Shown: positions 6,566 through 21,750 of the stretch, piece by piece | How positions within the stretch are numbered: the stretch's first letter is position 1 | Layout of the letters: each line of letters begins with the position of its first letter | Source of the DNA: Deltaproteobacteria bacterium HGW-Deltaproteobacteria-18 | GTDB lineage: Bacteria > Desulfobacterota > Desulfovibrionia > Desulfovibrionales > Desulfomicrobiaceae | Length of the DNA: 64,000 bases | Direction of reading: 5' to 3' | NCBI GenBank assembly: GCA_002841885.1 | Contig: PHBE01000003.1 | Location: 1 to 64,000, forward strand | The notes under the pieces: generated by a model | The model's database searches: none | Told to the model about the DNA's origin: nothing | The model's input: only the letters and a program-made list of their open reading frames with translations | Program-made: the position numbers and the translations under genes

Positions 6566-7648
6566 ATGATTGAAAGCAGACTCGACAGTGCCGCCAAAAA
6601 GCGGCTGGCCACGTTGAAGGCAGGAGAGCGCATAGAGCCGGAGTTCGCCCTGGAGATTGCCCGCAATGCCTCGGTGCACGAGCTGGGCGAGGCGGCCCTG
6701 AAGCAGCGCCGGGCACGGCATGGCGACAAGGCCTATTACGTCTACAACCAGCACCTGAACTATACCAACGTGTGCCGCAATCAGTGCCGCTTCTGCGCAT
6801 TTTTCAAGAAGGCCGGGGAGGAAGGGGGATACACCTACTCGCTTGAAGAGGCCAGAAAGCGCCTCACGGACCGCCTCCATGAGCCCATCCGCGAGATCCA
6901 CATCACAGGCGGCCTGAATCCGGACCTGCCTTATCAGTACTACCTCGACCTTTTGGCCCTGTGCAAGGAAGTGCGGCCCCAGGCCGTGGTCAAGGCCTTC
7001 ACCGCCGTGGAGGTAGCCCACTTCGCCGACACCCTGGGCACGGACGAGGTCACCGTGCTTCGCGAGATGAAGGCCGTGGGTCTGGACGCCTTGCCCGGTG
7101 GTGGAGCCGAGGTCTTTTCTCCTGCCATGCGCGAGCAGTTGTGTCCGGAAAAGGTCACCGCCGATCGCTGGCTGTACATTCACGGGCTGGCCCACGATAT
7201 GGGCATGAAGACCAATTCCACCATGCTTTTCGGGCACATCGAATCATGGGAAGACCGCATCCATCACATGGAACGCCTGCGTGCCGCAGAGGACGAAAAG
7301 CCCGGTTTCATCGTCTTCATCCCCCTGGCCTATCAGCCGCAGAACAACGCTCTGAGTGCTGCTGGCCCCACGGGCGAGGAATACCTGCGCACCATTTCCG
7401 TGGCGCGTCTCTTTCTGGACAATATTCCGCACATCAAGGCCTACTGGGCGTTTTCCGGCATCAAGGCCGCACAGATGGCGCTGTGGGCCGGAGCTGATGA
7501 TTTCGACGGCACCATCGTGGAAGAGAAGATCGGGCATGCGGCTGGTGCCGACTCGCCCAAGGGCATGACCATCTCCGAACTGGTCGAGACCATCGCCGCC
7601 ACGGGCTTTACCCCGGTGGAGCGGGATACGTTCTTTCACGAACTATAG
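6566..7648 (+). CDS. mqnE: Aminofutalosine synthase (radical SAM, menaquinone futalosine pathway)
   Basis: 360 residues from ATG 6566, with AAGGACC upstream. NYTNVCRNQCRFCAFFK carries the Cx3Cx2C cluster site. Other MqnE/CofH-like marks are EIHITGGLNPDLP, LDALPGGGAEVFS and MKTNSTMLFGH. MqnE joins an enolpyruvyl-benzoate precursor to the deoxyadenosyl radical to give aminofutalosine, the first committed stage of menaquinone synthesis by the alternative route. The related MqnC and CofH share the fold, but the GGGAEV and GLNPD motifs fit MqnE best. A prenyltransferase of UbiA type lies at 53.9 kb in the same window. The gene appears to stand alone between two terminators. Confidence 0.88.
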   Translation: MIESRLDSAAKKRLATLKAGERIEPEFALEIARNASVHELGEAALKQRRARHGDKAYYVYNQHLNYTNVCRNQCRFCAFFKKAGEEGGYTYSLEEARKRLTDRLHEPIREIHITGGLNPDLPYQYYLDLLALCKEVRPQAVVKAFTAVEVAHFADTLGTDEVTVLREMKAVGLDALPGGGAEVFSPAMREQLCPEKVTADRWLYIHGLAHDMGMKTNSTMLFGHIESWEDRIHHMERLRAAEDEKPGFIVFIPLAYQPQNNALSAAGPTGEEYLRTISVARLFLDNIPHIKAYWAFSGIKAAQMALWAGADDFDGTIVEEKIGHAAGADSPKGMTISELVETIAATGFTPVERDTFFHEL

Positions 7649-11538: not shown

Positions 11539-11856
11539 TTAAACGCAGCCGGTGGGCTTGGGCAGGCCGGCCATTTTGCAGGCGCCTTTGCCGGGGCCGG
11601 AGGGGAAAAGTTCGTAGATCTGCTTCAGCTTGTAGCCGGTGGACTTGGAAAGAATACGGACCATGGGGGCAATACCGTTCTTCTTGTAGTAGTCCTGCAG
11701 GAAGTCGAGGATCTGCTGGTGAGCTTCAGTGATTTCGGAAATGCCTTCGCTCTCCTTGACGTATTCAGCCCATTCCGGACCCCAGTCTTCAAACTTCAGC
11801 AGAAAACCGTCTTCATCGATCTCGAAACTTTTACCCTTGAATTCGATCATTGCCAT
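11539..11856 (-). CDS. dsrC: DsrC sulfur-carrier protein of dissimilatory sulfite reductase
   Basis: 105 residues from the ATG at 11854-11856, with AGGAGG eight bases upstream; an earlier in-frame TTG is rejected. The protein opens MAMIEFKGKSFEIDEDGFL and ends with two conserved cysteines spaced 11 apart, the second being the penultimate residue (TGCV). These two cysteines carry sulfite-derived sulfur as an internal trisulfide that is passed to the DsrMKJOP membrane complex. The protein is cytoplasmic. It stands away from any dsrAB genes, as is usual in Desulfovibrionales. It is the strongest indicator of sulfur respiration in the window. Confidence 0.97.
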   Translation of the reverse strand: MAMIEFKGKSFEIDEDGFLLKFEDWGPEWAEYVKESEGISEITEAHQQILDFLQDYYKKNGIAPMVRILSKSTGYKLKQIYELFPSGPGKGACKMAGLPKPTGCV

Positions 11857-15769: not shown

Positions 15770-15823
15770 TTGACACGGAAATTTTTTATGCGGTATTGAC
15801 CAAAATACATGGGTGAGGTATTG
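15770..15823 (+). promoter_or_regulatory. Promoter and possible MarR operator for the sulfur operon
   Basis: TTGACA (15770-15775) and TATTGA (15794-15799) form a promoter with an 18-bp spacer. Overlapping the -10 is the inverted repeat GTATTGACCAAAATAC (15793-15808), and GGTATTG recurs as a direct repeat at 15792 and 15817. A repressor bound there would block the promoter, fitting autoregulation by the adjacent MarR protein. Confidence 0.45.
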
Positions 15824-15831
15824 TTCACAGT

Positions 15832-16326
15832 ATGAATGAAAAAAAACAGTCCTCTCTGGGTTTGTCTATAGAGATTGATAAATTTCAGTCTATTATGGAT
15901 GAATTGAATAGACGCTGCCATGAACGTTTTCGTGCGCAGTGCGAATTTTTCGGCGTTAGCGAGGCGGAGCTGCGCTGTCTGCGCAATTTCGAGAATCAGC
16001 GTTACATGACGTCCCGGGATCTGGCCGCGGCTCTGGGGGTGGTCAAAAGTCGGGTGACCAAGATCGTCGACGGCCTGGAGAAAAAAGGCTTTCTCCAGCG
16101 TACGCCCGACCCTGGGGATTCCCGGGTGATTCTCTTCAGCCTGACTCCGCTGGGAAAGGAGAAGTGGGACGCGGCCCGCGGGCATGTCCAGGCGGTCAAT
16201 GCCGCAATACTGGCGAGGCTTTCCGAGAGCCAGCGGATCGAAATGCTCTCCGCCCTGGCCATGCTGAAAGTGTCCATGGACGCGGTCTCTCCCTTGGGAG
16301 CGGAGTTTTCGTCCGGCAGTGAATGA
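15832..16326 (+). CDS. MarR-family transcriptional regulator
   Basis: 164 residues with a winged helix at about 45-110: MTSRDLAAALGVVKSRVTKIVDGLE is the helix-turn-helix and the RVILFSLTPLGKEKW strand-turn is the wing. Three cysteines (29, 37, 49) sit in and around the first helices, where thiol-sensing MarR proteins such as OhrR keep theirs; thiol sensing here is an inference. The gene is first in a run of six co-directional genes and lies 58 bp before the dsrE-like gene, so it most likely controls them. Start ATG 15832 lies just after the proposed operator. Confidence 0.85.
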   Translation: MNEKKQSSLGLSIEIDKFQSIMDELNRRCHERFRAQCEFFGVSEAELRCLRNFENQRYMTSRDLAAALGVVKSRVTKIVDGLEKKGFLQRTPDPGDSRVILFSLTPLGKEKWDAARGHVQAVNAAILARLSESQRIEMLSALAMLKVSMDAVSPLGAEFSSGSE

Positions 16327-16384
16327 AGCGGATTGTGTACGGGTTTTTAGTTCGTCCAACAGATAAGACATGGAGGATAACCGA

Positions 16385-16939
16385 ATGAGCGATATGCAGC
16401 AGCTGCAGGAGCAACTCGATGCTCTGCGCAAGGAATTTGCCGGGGTGAAACGCTCCGTCCAGGAAGACAAGCTTTCGATGGTCCTTTTCAGCGGCGATCT
16501 GGACAAGGCTCTGGCAGCCCTCATCATCGCCACGGGCTCGGTTGCCATGGGCATGGAGGCGGTCATTTTCCTGACCTTCTGGGGCACGCCCCTGTTCCGC
16601 AAGCCGGACAAGACCGTGACCGGCAAGGATCTGATGAGCTCCATGTTCGGCTGGATGCTCCCCAAGGGCGCTGGCAAGGCCACCCTGTCCAAGATGAACA
16701 TGGGGGGTATGGGAACGACCATGCTCAAGGATCTGATGAAAAAGAAGAACGTGGCCTCCCTGCCCGAGATGATCGACATGGCCGGCCAGCTGGGCGTGAA
16801 GGTCTACATATGCGAAATGTCCATGGATCTCATGGGATTCAAGCGCGAAGAGATGATCGACTACCCGGATCTGAAATACGCCGGAGTGGCCACGTTCCTG
16901 GCTGAAGCGAAGAACAGCAAGGTGCAACTGTTTCTGTAA
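16385..16939 (+). CDS. DsrE-family (DsrE2-like) sulfur-transfer protein
   Basis: 184 residues from ATG 16385, preceded by GGAGG. It has a coiled N-terminus, a KLSMVLFSGDLDKALAAL core, a membrane-like or buried glycine/alanine segment (about 47-65), and a single cysteine (Cys143) in YICEMSMDLMGF, the position of the persulfide-bearing cysteine in the DsrE2 group. DsrE2 proteins often occur beside TusA and rhodanese, passing sulfane sulfur between them. Here tusA starts 21 bp downstream. It is probably cytoplasmic or peripheral to the membrane. No DsrF/H partner is present, so it is not the DsrEFH complex of sulfur oxidisers. Confidence 0.82.
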   Translation: MSDMQQLQEQLDALRKEFAGVKRSVQEDKLSMVLFSGDLDKALAALIIATGSVAMGMEAVIFLTFWGTPLFRKPDKTVTGKDLMSSMFGWMLPKGAGKATLSKMNMGGMGTTMLKDLMKKKNVASLPEMIDMAGQLGVKVYICEMSMDLMGFKREEMIDYPDLKYAGVATFLAEAKNSKVQLFL

Positions 16940-16960
16940 TCATTCCAAAGGAGGATCAAG

Positions 16961-17200
16961 ATGAGTGATATCAAGGTTGAAAAGAAGATCGACCTGAGCG
17001 GGCTGCCCTGCCCCATGCCCGTGGTGAAGATCAGCAAGGAGATCAAGACCGTCGAGGTGGGGCAGATCATCGAAGCCAAGACCACGGATCCCGGTGCCCT
17101 GTCGGATTTTCCGGCCTGGGCCCAGTCGAGCGGCAACGAGATCGTCAAGGTCGAGGAAGGCGCGGACGGCGCGACCTTCTTCGTGAAGCGTACGGCCTAG
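16961..17200 (+). CDS. tusA: TusA/SirA-family sulfur carrier
   Basis: 79 residues, start with AAAGGAGGATCAAG upstream. The signature LPCPMPVVK (Cys17 in the CPxP motif) is the sulfur-accepting site of TusA proteins, which carry persulfide sulfur to other proteins. The rest keeps the family size and DPGALSDFPAWAQ helix region. Its neighbours are the DsrE-like protein upstream and the membrane redox pair downstream, so it is probably dedicated to this system rather than to tRNA thiolation; that is inference from context. Confidence 0.9.
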   Translation: MSDIKVEKKIDLSGLPCPMPVVKISKEIKTVEVGQIIEAKTTDPGALSDFPAWAQSSGNEIVKVEEGADGATFFVKRTA

Positions 17201-17209
17201 CGGAGACAA

Positions 17210-17235
17210 GGCCCGGGATACGCCCGGGCCTTTCG
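17210..17235 (+). terminator. Hairpin after tusA, possible partial terminator
   Basis: GGCCCGGG (17210-17217) and CCCGGGCC (17223-17230) pair perfectly around five bases and are followed by only three Ts. It may reduce read-through so that the two carrier proteins are made in excess over the membrane genes. Confidence 0.55.
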
Positions 17236-17277
17236 CGCATTCCGCGCGCCGGAGATCCGCGCGCAGGAGACTCTGTT

Positions 17278-17985
17278 ATGGAAACCCTGATCTATGTCGT
17301 TCTGGTGCCCATGGTTTATGTCGCGGCATTCGTTTTCATTCTGGGCACGATCTGGCGTATCTACGAGATCGTGCGCAGGCCCGCCTTTGCCCCGAGCTTG
17401 AAGATATTCCCCGCAAGAGAGCCCGCGTGGCTGTACGCCCTGACCGACGCGTTTTTCCTGCCCATGGTCCGCAGGCACAACCCCGTGCTGTGGTTTTTCC
17501 TCATCCTCCTGCATACCTGCATCATTCTGCTCGTTCTCGGGCATCTGGAACTGTTCGCGGAGATGCCGTGGCTGCAGGTCTGGCCGCACGAGGTCTTTCT
17601 CGGTGCGGGTTTCGTAGGTGTGCTGGGTTTTCTCTGTCTGCTTTTCCTGCTGTTCAGGCGTTTTGCGCCGCCGGCCAAGGACCTGTCGGTCCCGGAGGAC
17701 TATTTTCTCCTCGTCGTGCTTCTTCTGGCCGTGGTCTTCGGGTCTGAAATGCATCTGGCCAGGCGGCTATATGATTTCAGCTCCATTGGCGTGTCCGAAT
17801 ACCGCGAGTATCTCATGAGCCTGGTCCACTTCGAGCCGTCCGTCGACGCCGTGACGGGTTCGGGGCACAGCTTCATGCTGGCGCTGCATGTCTTTTTCGC
17901 CAATCTCTTTATTATGGTCTTTCCGTTTTCCAAAATGATGCACGCCGTGTTGAGCATCCCGGCCAACATGATGCGGCGGAGGTAG
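17278..17985 (+). CDS. Membrane cytochrome b, NarI/DsrM/TmcC-like
   Basis: 235 residues with five hydrophobic helices (about 3-25, 70-92, 107-127, 141-158, 198-218). Histidines suitable as heme b ligands occur in helices or at their ends (79, 89, 159, 204, 222). The last helix and FPFSKMMHA tail match the nitrate-reductase gamma-like family, which includes DsrM, HmcE and TmcC. Such subunits exchange electrons between menaquinol and a partner Fe-S protein. The partner is encoded two bases after its stop. Unlike nitrate reductase, no molybdenum subunit is present. Confidence 0.82.
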   Translation: METLIYVVLVPMVYVAAFVFILGTIWRIYEIVRRPAFAPSLKIFPAREPAWLYALTDAFFLPMVRRHNPVLWFFLILLHTCIILLVLGHLELFAEMPWLQVWPHEVFLGAGFVGVLGFLCLLFLLFRRFAPPAKDLSVPEDYFLLVVLLLAVVFGSEMHLARRLYDFSSIGVSEYREYLMSLVHFEPSVDAVTGSGHSFMLALHVFFANLFIMVFPFSKMMHAVLSIPANMMRRR

Positions 17986-17987
17986 CC

Positions 17988-19256
17988 ATGGACGAATCGA
18001 CCCGCTCGAAACTGCTTGCCCTTTTCGAGGGCAAGTTGACCCGTGCCATGGAGGTCTATCTCGAGACCTGCTCCCGCTGCGGCATATGCACACCGGCCTG
18101 CCACGCCTACGCCTCCCTGCCCCTGCACAGGTATTCCCCGGCCCATCGGGCCGAGGTGGTGCGTCGCATCTACAAGAAATACTTCAAAACCCAGGGCCGC
18201 CTGTTCCCCTGGTGGGGGCAGGCCAAAGTTCTGGACGACACGGCCATCGAGGAACTCAAGGAGGCCGCATACACCTGCACGGGCTGCCGCCGCTGCATGC
18301 TCTACTGCCCTTTCGGCATCGACACGCAACAGATCGTGTCCATCGCCAAGCTGCTGCTCATCGGTGCCGGTGCCGAGCCCGAGACCCTGACCATGCTGGC
18401 GGACATGTCCGTGACCAAGGGGCAGAACGTCGAGGCCTTCAAACCGCGCTTTCTGGACGGCATCAGGCGCCTGGAGACCAAGGTGCTTGAACGCTGGAGG
18501 AGCGAGTCCGGAAGCCCCATTCCGACGGAGGTCGAAGGGGCGGACGTACTCTACGTGGCCCTGGCCGGAGCCCACTCCATCGTCCCCGCGGCGGCGGTTT
18601 TCAACGCGGCCGGGGAGAGCTGGACGCTGAGTTTCTTCGAGGCCGTCAATTTCGGCGCCTTTGTCGGCGATCCGACCAAGACAAAGCTCATCCTGGACCG
18701 CATCGTGAACGAGGCCCTGCGCCTCAAGGTCAAGGAGGTCGTCATCTGCGAGTGCGGCACGGCCTACCGCGTCATGAAGCAACTCTCGGGGGATCATCCT
18801 TTTTCCGTGTTTTCCGTGACCGAATTGCATGCCAGATACATTCGAGACGGACGCATCAAGGTTCGTGAAAAGGCCATCGCCCGCCCGGTCATGTATCACG
18901 ATCCCTGCCAGATCGCGCGCAACGGCGGCGTTATGGATGAACCACGCTTCATTCTGGACCGCCTGTGCGCGGACTATCGTGAAATTTCCCCGCAGGCCAG
19001 CTACAACTGGTGCTGCGGCGGCGGTGGCGGCTTGGTTGCCATGGGTGAAGACACCCTGGATTTCAGAATGAAGTCGACGAAAATCAAGGCCGAGCAGATT
19101 GCAAAACTCGGGAAATGCGCGCCTTCAGACAACGCCATACTAGCCACTGCATGTGAAAACTGCCACACTCAGCTGGGAGATATAAACAGACACTACAAAC
19201 TTGGCCTGGAGATCCAGTTTTTGTCGTCCATGGTGGCCGACGCACTGGTGAAATAG
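17988..19256 (+). CDS. HdrD/DsrK-like iron-sulfur protein with CCG domain
   Basis: 422 residues. Two ferredoxin-type cluster sites occur near residues 26-36 (CSRCGICTPAC) and 92-104 (CTGCRRCMLYCP). A CCG domain follows: HDPCQ, 34 residues, NWCCGGGGG, then ACENC. In HdrB/HdrD and DsrK this domain holds a special 4Fe cluster that reduces disulfides or the DsrC trisulfide. No transmembrane span is seen, so it should sit on the cytoplasmic side bound to the cytochrome b encoded 2 bp upstream, a two-subunit DsrMK-like module. With TusA and DsrE upstream, its natural substrate may be a protein persulfide or trisulfide; this is inference. Confidence 0.85.
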   Translation: MDESTRSKLLALFEGKLTRAMEVYLETCSRCGICTPACHAYASLPLHRYSPAHRAEVVRRIYKKYFKTQGRLFPWWGQAKVLDDTAIEELKEAAYTCTGCRRCMLYCPFGIDTQQIVSIAKLLLIGAGAEPETLTMLADMSVTKGQNVEAFKPRFLDGIRRLETKVLERWRSESGSPIPTEVEGADVLYVALAGAHSIVPAAAVFNAAGESWTLSFFEAVNFGAFVGDPTKTKLILDRIVNEALRLKVKEVVICECGTAYRVMKQLSGDHPFSVFSVTELHARYIRDGRIKVREKAIARPVMYHDPCQIARNGGVMDEPRFILDRLCADYREISPQASYNWCCGGGGGLVAMGEDTLDFRMKSTKIKAEQIAKLGKCAPSDNAILATACENCHTQLGDINRHYKLGLEIQFLSSMVADALVK

Positions 19257-19289
19257 TTGAAATAACTGGAAGCGAAAGAAGGAGGGAGG

Positions 19290-20489
19290 ATGGGAAGCAG
19301 ATCTGGGTTGTTGCGGGGCGCGGTTGCGGCGGTCCTGCTGGTTCTGGCCTTGTCCGGGGTCGCCTTTGCCACTAACGGCATGCAGCTGATCGGTATTGGA
19401 CCCGTACAGCGGTCCATGGGCGGAGCGGGTTCGGCCCTGCCCCTGGATTCTTTCGTCATCACCCTCAATCCGGCGGCCATGAGTGAACTGCCGGCCATGA
19501 TCGATCTGGGCGTGACTCATTTTGATCCGTCTTCGGATTACGAGACGACGGATGCTTTCGTCGGAGATTCGGACAAGTCGAGCGGCTATCCGTCATCGAC
19601 CATCCCCTCGCTTGGCGTTGTTTACCCGCTTTCCGATCGGCTGAGCCTGGGCCTTGCAGCCTTTGGGTCGGCCGGGATGGGGGTCGATTACGGAGCGGGG
19701 CTGTATGGGTCGAAGGTCTACACCAGTTTCGAGATGATGAAAGTGGTGCCGGCCCTGTCCTACAAGATCAGCGACGGTTTCTCCGTGGGCGTGGCTCTCA
19801 ATCTCGACCGGGCGGTGATGGGTTACGAGGCGGGAGGTGGTCAGGAGCACGATCATGACGTCAGCTTCGGGTACGGGTTCCAGATCGGGGCGTACCTGCG
19901 TCCCTCGCAGCAGTGGTCCCTGTCGCTGGCCTACATCAGCCAGGAATGGTTCGAGGACTTCGAGTTTGAGACGGCCCTGGGCGAGGACAAGCTGGATCTG
20001 GGGCTGCCCCAGCAGGTTGTGTTCGGCCTTGGCTACCGCCCCACGGACCGCCTGCGTCTGGCCCTGGATCTGAAATGGATCAACTGGGCCCAGACCATGG
20101 GCGAGAACAAGCCGCGCATGCCCAAGCACGAGGCCACGCCGGACTACCAGCTCTTCAACATGAACTGGGATGACCAAGTGGTCTTCGCCATCGGCGCGGA
20201 GTACGACCTCGTCCCCGAGCGGTGGAAGATCCGCGTCGGCTACAATTACGGCAAGGCACCCCTGAACGAGGAGCAGGCCTTCGAGAACGTAGCCTTCCCG
20301 GCGCTGGTCGAACATCACTTCACGGCCGGCGTGGGCTGGTCGCCCATGGAGAAGCTGTGGCTCAACCTGGGCGGCATGTACGCGCCCGAGGTGACCATGT
20401 CCGGCTCGAATACGGGCCAGGCCATCACCGACTACGAGACGACGCTGTCGGAATACGCCATCGACTTCGGCATTTCCTACCGCTTCTAG
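19290..20489 (+). CDS. FadL/OmpP1-family outer-membrane transporter
   Basis: 399 residues. A signal peptide (about 1-27, ending GVAFA) precedes the mature N-terminus TNGMQLIGIGPVQRSMGGAG, typical of FadL-like proteins that plug the barrel. Alternating beta strands fill the rest, and the C-terminus ends in ISYRF with the terminal phenylalanine recognised by the BAM machinery. FadL channels admit hydrophobic compounds. It ends the sulfur operon (33 bp after the CCG protein), and a terminator follows. A hydrophobic sulfur compound or an aromatic would be a logical cargo but is not shown. The start has AGGAGGGAGG immediately upstream. Confidence 0.85.
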   Translation: MGSRSGLLRGAVAAVLLVLALSGVAFATNGMQLIGIGPVQRSMGGAGSALPLDSFVITLNPAAMSELPAMIDLGVTHFDPSSDYETTDAFVGDSDKSSGYPSSTIPSLGVVYPLSDRLSLGLAAFGSAGMGVDYGAGLYGSKVYTSFEMMKVVPALSYKISDGFSVGVALNLDRAVMGYEAGGGQEHDHDVSFGYGFQIGAYLRPSQQWSLSLAYISQEWFEDFEFETALGEDKLDLGLPQQVVFGLGYRPTDRLRLALDLKWINWAQTMGENKPRMPKHEATPDYQLFNMNWDDQVVFAIGAEYDLVPERWKIRVGYNYGKAPLNEEQAFENVAFPALVEHHFTAGVGWSPMEKLWLNLGGMYAPEVTMSGSNTGQAITDYETTLSEYAIDFGISYRF

Positions 20490-20601: not shown

Positions 20602-21750
20602 CTACGATGCCGCGGCCCTGGCGCTGGCGGCGCATTCGTTCTTGCCCAGGTCCAGGACCTCCTGCTGTTCGGGCGTCTCCTCGCGCAGGCCCGCGTTGAT
20701 CTCGCGGATGATGGCGTATTCGGGCGGTTGCGGGCGCATGTTGTCTTTGATGAACCCGTAGAAGTCCGCCGCGTTGTCCATGGCGAAGATGTCGAGGTTG
20801 CGCTTCATGACCCCGTCCAGGGAGGCGGCAAAGGCCAGGTCGGGTCTCGCCTCGCTCCAGTCCATCCAGTGGGCCGGCAGGATCTGCGTGGTGGGAGGGA
20901 GCTTTTTGATGACGTCATTCAAGGTGCGGAACAGGAATCTGGACCAGGCTTCGGCCTGGCCGCCCAGGTCGGGCCGGCCGATGGACTCGATGAAGACCGT
21001 GTCGCCGGAGACGAGGTATTTGCCGTCTATCAGGTAACAGGTGCTCCCGGGCGTATGGCCGGGGGTGTGCAGGGCCTTGATTTCGGGTCCCCCGCCGGTC
21101 AGGTGGAAAACGTCGCCGTCTTTGACCGGGGTGAAAGGGAAGGCTGCACCGCCGAAATCAGCCTCGTTGCCCAGCATCTCAATCCCGTGCTCCCTGGCCA
21201 GGGCGGGGCCGCCGGAGATGTAGTCGGCCTGCTTGTGAGTCTCGAAGGACTTGACGATGCGCGCGCCGTGGTCCGCCGCGAATTTCGTGTAGAACTCGAG
21301 GTTGCGGGACGGGTCGAAGACCGCCATCTCCCCATTGAAGATCAGCCCGTAGCTGCAGGAGGCCTTGCCGGGGCGGCGGAACTGGTAGAACTCGTACCCG
21401 TTGCCGTGGATCAGGACCGGGGTCAGCAGGTTGCCCCAGGCCTTGATGCCGCCCAGGAGGTGGCCAAGGTCCTCGTATCCCCGGGCTTCGAGAATCTCGG
21501 TCACGAATTTGGACGAGCCTTCCTTGGCGCATACGGCGCGGATGGGCTTGCCTTTAGGCACTTTGGCGACGGATTCGTCTTCGTGTTCGATGAAATCCAT
21601 GTACGGGACATTGATCATGTCTATGGGACTGGGCCCCTCGATCTTGAACCGTGCGAACTCGGCGGGGTTACGGACGTCCAGGAGCAGGAAGTCCCGGGCG
21701 TGGGTGACAAGATCGAAAAGTTCCTCAGCGGTGAATCCGTGAACGCTCAT
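20602..21750 (-). CDS. Rhodanese domain fused to a metallo-beta-lactamase (persulfide-dioxygenase-like) domain
   Basis: 382 residues. The rhodanese domain covers about 1-110, with DVRNPAEF and active-site Cys74 in VCAKEGSS. The MBL domain runs about 120-315. Its first metal motif is ETHKQADYISG (His172, then Gln174, Asp176, Tyr177) instead of the usual HxHxDH; later ligands HTPGHTPGS (His228, His232), SGDT (Asp250) and LPAHW (His294) are kept. The mono-iron site of ETHE1-type persulfide dioxygenases uses one His from the first motif, one later His and an Asp, and these are present. A small C-terminal tail follows. It faces the sulfur operon convergently and probably acts on sulfane sulfur in the cytoplasm. 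Oxygen-dependent chemistry would be odd in an anaerobe. Confidence 0.8.
   Translation of the reverse strand: MSVHGFTAEELFDLVTHARDFLLLDVRNPAEFARFKIEGPSPIDMINVPYMDFIEHEDESVAKVPKGKPIRAVCAKEGSSKFVTEILEARGYEDLGHLLGGIKAWGNLLTPVLIHGNGYEFYQFRRPGKASCSYGLIFNGEMAVFDPSRNLEFYTKFAADHGARIVKSFETHKQADYISGGPALAREHGIEMLGNEADFGGAAFPFTPVKDGDVFHLTGGGPEIKALHTPGHTPGSTCYLIDGKYLVSGDTVFIESIGRPDLGGQAEAWSRFLFRTLNDVIKKLPPTTQILPAHWMDWSEARPDLAFAASLDGVMKRNLDIFAMDNAADFYGFIKDNMRPQPPEYAIIREINAGLREETPEQQEVLDLGKNECAASARAAAS

Follow-up and report, generated by a model that had tools for sequence, protein, structure and literature searches.

A regulated set of sulfur carriers and a DsrMK-type membrane pair as a candidate DsrC-independent sulfane-sulfur system in anaerobic bacteria

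The stretch of DNA analysed here (the window; positions 1 to 64,000 of contig PHBE01000003.1, Deltaproteobacteria bacterium HGW-Deltaproteobacteria-18) carries a six-gene operon, marR-dsrE2-tusA-narI-like-CCG-fadL, in which the regulator and the following four genes are a conserved unit and FadL is an accessory. We tentatively favour, at a confidence just short of probable, a reading in which this core is an inducible, DsrC-independent membrane redox system that would reduce sulfane sulfur bound to TusA and DsrE2; the cluster probably lets anaerobes deal with reactive sulfur chains. The parts are of known kinds, whereas, as far as could be seen, their combination, the subfamily of the iron-sulfur (CCG) protein and its regulator are undescribed. 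A sequence-only reading of the same DNA (its span from 15770 includes the promoter region) had proposed these six genes, with the CCG gene two bases behind the narI-like gene, as one operon under one local regulator that combines a DsrMK-type membrane pair with dedicated sulfur carriers, DsrJOP being absent from the cluster. All of this is supported by the present analysis: the genes lie in the stated order on the + strand (15832-20489; 17985/17988 for the two-base step), and the family matches of all six exceed the Pfam cut-offs (Table 1).

Conservation and components of the core

With the CCG protein of the window as query, a scan of 84,980 species genomes yielded 71 loci. Identity and tree position guided their manual division into a main group of 58 and a divergent group of 13 (L086, L087, L089-L098 and L104); the gene-presence counts that follow cover loci with enough flanking DNA. 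TusA lies upstream of the CCG gene in 46/47 main and 10/10 divergent loci (56/57 in total), DsrE2 in 42/45 and 8/8 (50/53 in total), and the NarI-like gene is present in 49/50 and 11/11, respectively (47/50 main loci by the distance limit of the script, to which L051 and L056 are added as they carry the gene across wider gaps). The conserved dsrE2-tusA-narI-CCG order that had been predicted from the window is thus borne out across the 71 loci, and this recurrence rules out a chance arrangement. The genes at either end differ between the two groups: MarR is found in 35/38 main versus 1/8 divergent loci, and FadL in 26/50 versus 0/11. A deviating order was observed in L087, where the NarI-like gene precedes tusA and the DsrE2 matches are split in two pieces.

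The expectation that the system belongs to Desulfovibrionales proved too narrow. Its hosts include many Desulfobacterota at large, Candidatus Eisenbacteria (L086 and L089) and Spirochaetes (L096-L098, including Rectinema subterraneum), and it is sparse in the window's own family, where 2/22 genomes are positive at E ≤ 1e-60. The distribution is sporadic also in a sample of the phylum, in which 19/395 genomes, each scored on at most four candidates, have a protein with at least 49% identity. Among these 19 genomes, L115 and L116 have the NarI-like/CCG pair and no DsrE2 or TusA matches; a TauE/SafE permease gene lies near the pair in L116.

The DsrE2-like protein has a sole conserved cysteine (54/54 sequences). 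Its earlier designation as Cys143 holds from the start at 16385, which is preferred to that of the longest open reading frame (16370, from which the same residue is Cys148) because a Shine-Dalgarno-like GGAGGAT stands before it. With 71.9 bits against a cut-off of 210 for NCBIfam NF047629, the carrier is classed by its sequence as a DsrE2-like relative, not as the equivalog of that model; its relatives in the Protein Data Bank are 3pnx and 2qs7. The assignment of the next gene to TusA with a CPxP motif stands, and its Cys17 is conserved in 60/60 sequences.

The NarI-like protein scores under the NCBIfam cut-offs for TmcC, DsrM and NarI. Its Pfam Nitrate_red_gam match spans residues 76-234, and a weak alignment to the solved Escherichia coli NarI (E 0.01-0.05) covers query residues 77-234. 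Four histidines, His79, His89, His204 and His222, are each found in at least 59 of the 60 sequences and align near the four heme ligands of E. coli NarI (positions 56, 66, 187 and 205); they are, by this alignment, likely ligands of two b hemes. His104 and His197 are also conserved (59/60). As in the DsrMK complex, this membrane cytochrome b adjoins a CCG protein with two predicted ferredoxin clusters.

That CCG protein contains the ferredoxin motif CxxCxxCxxxC twice and the CCG motif once in full (C307, C342, C343, C389 and C392), of which C307, C342-C343 and C389-x-x-C392 are invariant in 64/64 operon CCG proteins. The spacing, C-X34-CCG-X44-CXXC, occurs as a single complete copy, the first CCG half being degenerate and keeping only C254/C256. 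DsrK (NF045796) is the best NCBIfam match, at 243-244 bits versus a 400-bit cut-off; the true DsrK of the window's host scores 695 bits on this model. A tree of 82 rows, for which a warning of long branches meeting was raised, included 64 operon CCG proteins (from 63 of the 71 loci and the window, partial ones being excluded) and 10 of 12 DsrK loci (L121 and L123 are missing, and L128 falls under the DsrK cut-off). In it the operon proteins form one clade with support 100/99, L115 and L116 nested within, and the DsrK rows form a separate group with support 99/90. Furthermore, the CCG motif ends in CxxD in 11/11 of the DsrK proteins above cut-off that were fetched, whereas the operon protein has CENC; TmcB and HmcF of the window's own genome retain CxxC and pass their NCBIfam cut-offs. 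Score, separate clade and motif ending together rule out that the operon gene is the host's DsrK. The description of a DsrK-like CCG protein is therefore apt for the DsrMK-type pairing and fails as an identification, the protein belonging to its own clade with a complete CCG motif. The DsrK proteins of L121 and L123 have CCA in place of CCG in the cluster motif.

The predicted structure of the CCG protein (predicted local distance difference test (pLDDT) 90) matches Hdr chain B with residues 185-422 (approximately 223 residues, Z 17.2-18.4). The model also matches EtfD of Mycobacterium smegmatis (Z 22.8 across 379 residues) and LutA-LutB (Z 18.9), against a racemase background of Z near 7. Since EtfD and LutA-LutB match equally or better, the modelled fold by itself does not single out Hdr; DsrK is not among the matches listed in this comparison, which carries no weight. 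Separately, in several families L110-L113 contain a further CCG protein, paired with a putative membrane protein and placed amid response-regulator and kinase-like genes (PAS/histidine-kinase, response-regulator and HEAT-repeat genes are confirmed near the CCG protein of L110), a set that is a possible redox-signalling variant.

Table 1 Features of the operon and its surroundings in the window
Feature	Position	Strand	Basis
Predicted sigma-70-type promoter, TTGACC-N17-TATTGT	15796..15824	+	Consensus match; weak evidence taken alone
Near-palindrome of 15 bp, GTTCACAGTATGAAT, operator-like, shared in part with the -10 and with the start codon of marR	15823..15837	+	Conserved in marR loci
MarR-family regulator, 164 amino acids, invariant C29 and C49	15832..16326	+	Pfam MarR 52.7 bits
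DsrE2-like sulfur carrier, one conserved Cys	16385..16939	+	Pfam DrsE_2 173.8 bits (cut-off 25)
TusA sulfur carrier, CPMP motif, Cys17	16961..17200	+	Pfam TusA PF01206 78.3 bits (cut-off 28.6)
NarI/DsrM/TmcC-like membrane cytochrome b, 235 amino acids	17278..17985	+	Pfam Nitrate_red_gam 50.8 bits
DsrK/HdrD-like iron-sulfur protein (CCG)	17988..19256	+	Pfam Fer4_8 43.3, CCG 32.1 bits
FadL/TodX-type outer-membrane channel, accessory member	19290..20489	+	Pfam Toluene_X 105.2 bits
Rhodanese and metallo-beta-lactamase fusion, convergent neighbour	20602..21750	-	Pfam

Regulators, operator and neighbouring genes

The AlphaFold model of MarR (pLDDT 92) has members of the MarR family as structural neighbours. 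The three cysteines ascribed to this regulator are present in the window; in general, two are constant (C29 and C49, 42/42 each) and C37 is found in 10/42. A 15-bp near-palindrome lies at the marR start in 42/42 genes (window included), with 11 to 15 positions matching GTTCACACTATGAAC, and is preceded in most loci by a TTGACA-like hexamer. The start codon within the near-palindrome is usable in frame in 40/41 loci; in L040 the near-palindrome is kept although its ATG meets a stop and cannot start marR. A second copy lies between marR and dsrE2 in 26/40 loci (score ≥8), compared with a mean of 0.71 and a maximum of 3 in 200 dinucleotide shuffles; in the window, no second copy was found before dsrE2 (best score -6.1). 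The copies before dsrE2 and the case of L040 rule out that the palindrome is a mere coding constraint at the marR start. Residue 2 of MarR is a nearly invariant Asn, as spelt by AAC/AAT of the operator, in the window and 41 related loci.

The -10 element of the marR promoter stops 7 bases ahead of the marR ATG. Because the first ATG/GTG sits 7-10 bases past the best -10 pick in 38/42 MarR loci, the marR message may be leaderless. Within its own genome, the exact degenerate pattern GTTMAYANNRTKAAY matches once (1 forward, 0 reverse), at this operon; the reversed control pattern has 1 match per strand, so the single operator match is not significant by itself. A wide MarR regulon in this genome is not supported by the exact degenerate pattern, which weaker sites would escape.

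Nine divergent loci that have upstream DNA and no MarR carry a regulator gene of one cluster in its place; three further MarR-less divergent loci are cut off, and L087 has MarR. The regulator of L090 is an ArsR by Pfam, and the four upstream regulators tested are ArsR/SmtB by NCBIfam, with BigR as the best specific model for 4/4 (47-64 bits versus a cut-off of 155), behind the general ArsR/SmtB model. The ArsR proteins of the divergent loci have a C-terminal CxxxC in 7/9 cases and a helix cysteine in 6/9. According to passages of PMC10451225, SoxR, SqrR and BigR have two cysteines in common, SoxR detects polysulfide via sulfur bridges between them, and two-cysteine ArsR proteins of that kind are sulfane-sulfur sensors. 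By analogy, the regulators argue for sulfane sulfur as the signal of the operon, since two unrelated regulator families with thiol-sensor traits accompany the same four genes.

FadL had been counted as a full member of the set. It does lie in the operon in the window, and it is optional in general, being absent from the divergent group. It has a Toluene_X domain and scores 29.6 bits against an NCBIfam equivalog cut-off of 585. The proposal that FadL admits a hydrophobic sulfur species is weakly supported because of this optional occurrence, although FadL is a plausible port for such a cargo. The loci lacking FadL have no common replacement gene among the neighbours scanned; four further neighbour clusters that occur in at least 5 loci and were scanned comprise an ABC transporter, a TPR protein and two small open reading frames without a Pfam match.

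The rhodanese fusion downstream is convergent in the window and L039, and stands on the same strand behind the operon in L067 and L085; it lies within 3 kb, on either strand, in 3/50 main loci. ETHE1 proteins have HxHxDH at the first metal motif. In the fusions of the window, L067 and L085 the rhodanese cysteine is kept and this motif looks degraded (THKQADY or THRQADY); because of this difference the protein is not called a dioxygenase, and it is perhaps, from its motifs, a sulfurtransferase without the former dioxygenase activity.

Electron supply and the direction of sulfur transfer

In the mechanism that we tentatively favour, polysulfide or elemental sulfur, as the presumed substrate, would give persulfides on the DsrE2 and TusA cysteines, and TusA-SSH (or a mixed di- or trisulfide) would dock at the non-cubane iron-sulfur cluster of the CCG protein. 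By analogy with disulfides at HdrB/HdrD and DsrK, this cluster would cleave the S-S bond to release sulfide, with electrons passing from the membrane pool, for which the window's host would use menaquinol, to the diheme cytochrome b, the two ferredoxin clusters and then the CCG site. MarR, or ArsR in divergent hosts, would sense sulfane sulfur by a two-cysteine bridge and then quit the operator, and FadL, if present, may pass hydrophobic sulfur across the outer membrane. The order of genes across phyla, the single invariant carrier cysteine, the conserved histidines and cluster cysteines, and the rhodanese fusion neighbours support this picture. The earlier suggestion had been that the set reduces or relays sulfane sulfur: the carriers and the membrane pair are supported, and the choice of reduction over oxidation is ours to infer. 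Two observations incline us towards reduction to sulfide: neither a flavoprotein of the oxidative Hdr kind nor a lipoate protein was seen among the scanned neighbours, and some of the hosts are organisms in which DsrA, DsrK and DsrC are not detectable.

The latter were identified among 22 selected hosts, comprising the window's own and those of 21 loci from the set of 71, which include 10 from the divergent group of 13 (cut-offs were E ≤ 1e-40 for DsrK and E ≤ 1e-20 for menD and mqnC). Regarding INDEPENDENCE from Dsr, full-score DsrA is present in 11/22 hosts, full-score DsrK in 11/22 and DsrC in 15/22. In the window's host, full-score DsrK and DsrA are encoded on a different contig, and DsrC in the window. 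Seven of the 22 (G425, G426, G429, G431, G432, G433 and G434) have no DsrA match, no DsrK above cut-off and no DsrC; one of them is the named strain Rectinema subterraneum, and in G434, where the locus is truncated to part of the CCG gene, no protein matches the DsrK model at E ≤ 1e-40. As genome completeness is not given, any single absence is weak and seven that agree are stronger. If these genomes are complete, the carrier in these seven hosts is not DsrC, as dsrA, above-cut-off DsrK and DsrC are all undetected there; they thus back the idea of dedicated carriers in place of DsrC. In 8/22 hosts the sole DsrK-model match at E ≤ 1e-40 is one sub-cut-off protein and dsrA was not found, so a DsrK-like match alone is unsafe as a marker and should not be taken as evidence of sulfate or sulfite respiration. 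In the window, dsrC lies at 11542-11844 (-), ~4 kb upstream of the operon; the other DsrC-bearing hosts have it on contigs other than the operon's, or 3 Mb off (G421), and its closeness in the window is treated as coincidence.

Several observations weigh against the favoured mechanism. Menaquinol, at about -74 mV, is a weak reductant for a persulfide at about -250 mV, and since the latter potential is the lower, reduction would require coupling or a substrate of higher potential. Ten hosts without full-score DsrA/DsrK (G425-G427 and G429-G435) have no menD above cut-off (G434 has a weak match of 74.9 bits), and mqnC was not found in the same ten at the E-value given. UbiE is above cut-off in G425, G426, G430 and G435 and just short of it in G427 (148 of 158 bits), and is not near the cut-off in G429 and G431-G434, which leaves the electron donor there unaccounted for. 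The two Eisenbacteria ArsR proteins (L086 and L089) are without cysteines at either sensor position. Finally, passages of PMC4175335 report that DsrE2B of M. cuprina was unreactive with all sulfur compounds tested, that its TusA reacts with tetrathionate and not with polysulfide, and that DsrE2-TusA pairs elsewhere accompany oxidative Hdr-like systems.

Further quinone markers add little to this. PF02621 has weak matches in G432 and G434 only among the ten hosts, and is lacking in G421 too, although that host has true DsrK, so that absence of the futalosine route alone says little; a search for the UbiA family was non-discriminating, with matches in 13/13 hosts and all 14 controls. The window's host has MqnC (476.8 bits). 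The window itself contains a further radical SAM gene resembling that of MqnC (6626-7642, +; 341.6 bits to MqnC), perhaps encoding MqnE of the futalosine pathway.

Among the alternatives, operation in the oxidative direction fares best, although we consider it unlikely. The CCG protein would here oxidise the DsrE2/TusA persulfide to sulfite or a higher sulfide and pass electrons through cytochrome b to the quinone pool, much like a pared-down, membrane-bound counterpart of sHdr, the sulfur-oxidising system. Electrons would run downhill from persulfide to menaquinone by the potentials given above, the operon of L067 is trailed by a rhodanese fusion and ATP sulfurylase, and the DsrEFH type II carriers of sulfate reducers have been proposed to serve sulfur oxidation in a passage of PMC13293266. 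Yet no HdrA-type flavoprotein or lipoate-binding protein was seen in the window genes and 30 selected neighbouring open reading frames scanned with Pfam, and it is not evident what the hosts without dsrA, in several of which no quinone pathway was detected either, would do with the electrons or sulfite.

A thiosulfonate substrate appears less likely still. TusA and DsrE2 would take thiosulfate off tetrathionate as a Cys-S-thiosulfonate, and the membrane pair would reduce this adduct to thiosulfate, or to sulfite and sulfide, in a form of polythionate handling. Tetrathionate-like adducts would be good menaquinol acceptors by the potentials we assume. In the relevant passages of PMC4175335, tetrathionate reacts with both DsrE3A and TusA of M. 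cuprina, whereas polysulfide and thiosulfate react with neither, and thiosulfate is handed from DsrE3A to TusA. However, the reactive partner there is DsrE3A and not DsrE2B, whereas the operon protein groups with DsrE2 by its DrsE_2 match (Table 1), and its second structural relative, 2qs7, is a DsrE2B according to the same source; the BigR-like ArsR and two-cysteine MarR, moreover, suggest sulfane sulfur. A house-keeping persulfide relay through DsrE2 and TusA for biosynthesis or tRNA thiolation, with a redox pair that merely keeps the carriers reduced, is improbable: the TusA family does serve tRNA modification and molybdenum cofactor synthesis (PMC4175335, in part), but the sporadic distribution in the family and phylum and the operon's own repressor with an operator fit an inducible accessory system, and no biosynthesis genes were recognised among the neighbours scanned.

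Comparison with known systems

A wider proposal, which we put forward with reserve as a possibility, is that the core represents a stand-alone DsrC-independent sulfane-sulfur oxidoreductase in at least three phyla, with interchangeable MarR/ArsR sulfane-sulfur repressors and, in some hosts, perhaps operation without a known quinone. If true, polysulfide reductase, Dsr and sHdr would be joined by a further route for coupling membrane electron transfer to zero-valent sulfur. The cytoplasmic uptake and reduction of elemental sulfur or polysulfide by sulfate reducers and other anaerobes are poorly understood, and for sulfur disproportionation the proposals made to date have given ambiguous markers (PMC12998232, in part). 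With its repressor and operator as a ready-made reporter, the operon provides one enzyme open to testing, both in hosts that have the Dsr pathway and in hosts that lack it. No published account of it was found in the passages and one section consulted from the open-licence literature of PubMed Central.

Related in their carriers are the Rhd-TusA-DsrE2 and sHdr/tusA-dsrE systems of sulfur oxidisers, in which, in passages of PMC4175335, TusA likewise stands beside a DsrE2-type carrier and is linked to an Hdr-like enzyme. By contrast, the operon has one cytochrome b/CCG pair instead of hdrC1B1AhyphdrC2B2, and no lipoate proteins among the neighbours scanned. In sulfate reducers and disproportionators, the YTD cluster and DsrEFH type II of Desulfobacterota also combine TusA with a member of the DsrE family (PMC13293266 and PMC12998232, in part). 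As printed in those passages, they comprise a YedE transporter and DsrEFH-type subunits, in place of which the operon has a DsrE2-like protein and the cytochrome b/CCG pair; neither paper uses the term NarI or FadL in its main text.

The CCG domain resembles HdrDE/HdrB in its modelled Hdr chain B fold, which other CCG-fold proteins match too, and in its complete CXnCCGXnCXXC motif. It differs in that the operon hosts examined are bacteria, the neighbours are sulfur carriers and there is a single full CCG motif. TmcBC, HmcEF and the NarI-CCG pairs of L110-L113 contain CCG proteins of the same kind, with 27-37% identity; these fall outside the operon clade, and the stretches fetched around them have no match to the DsrE2 or TusA of the window.

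A basal clade with dsrMK only has been described in Deltaproteobacteria and Clostridia, some of them without DsrAB (PMC10504309, in part), and may overlap with the operon family. Like DsrMK(JOP) of sulfate reducers, the operon encodes a NarI-like cytochrome b and an iron-sulfur protein that has two ferredoxin clusters and ends in a CCG domain. Unlike it, the operon is without DsrJOP and dsrC, and has its own carriers, DsrE2 and TusA, and its own MarR or ArsR. Its CCG protein represents a separate clade, with CENC in place of the DsrK CxxD, and occurs in organisms without detectable dsrA or DsrC.

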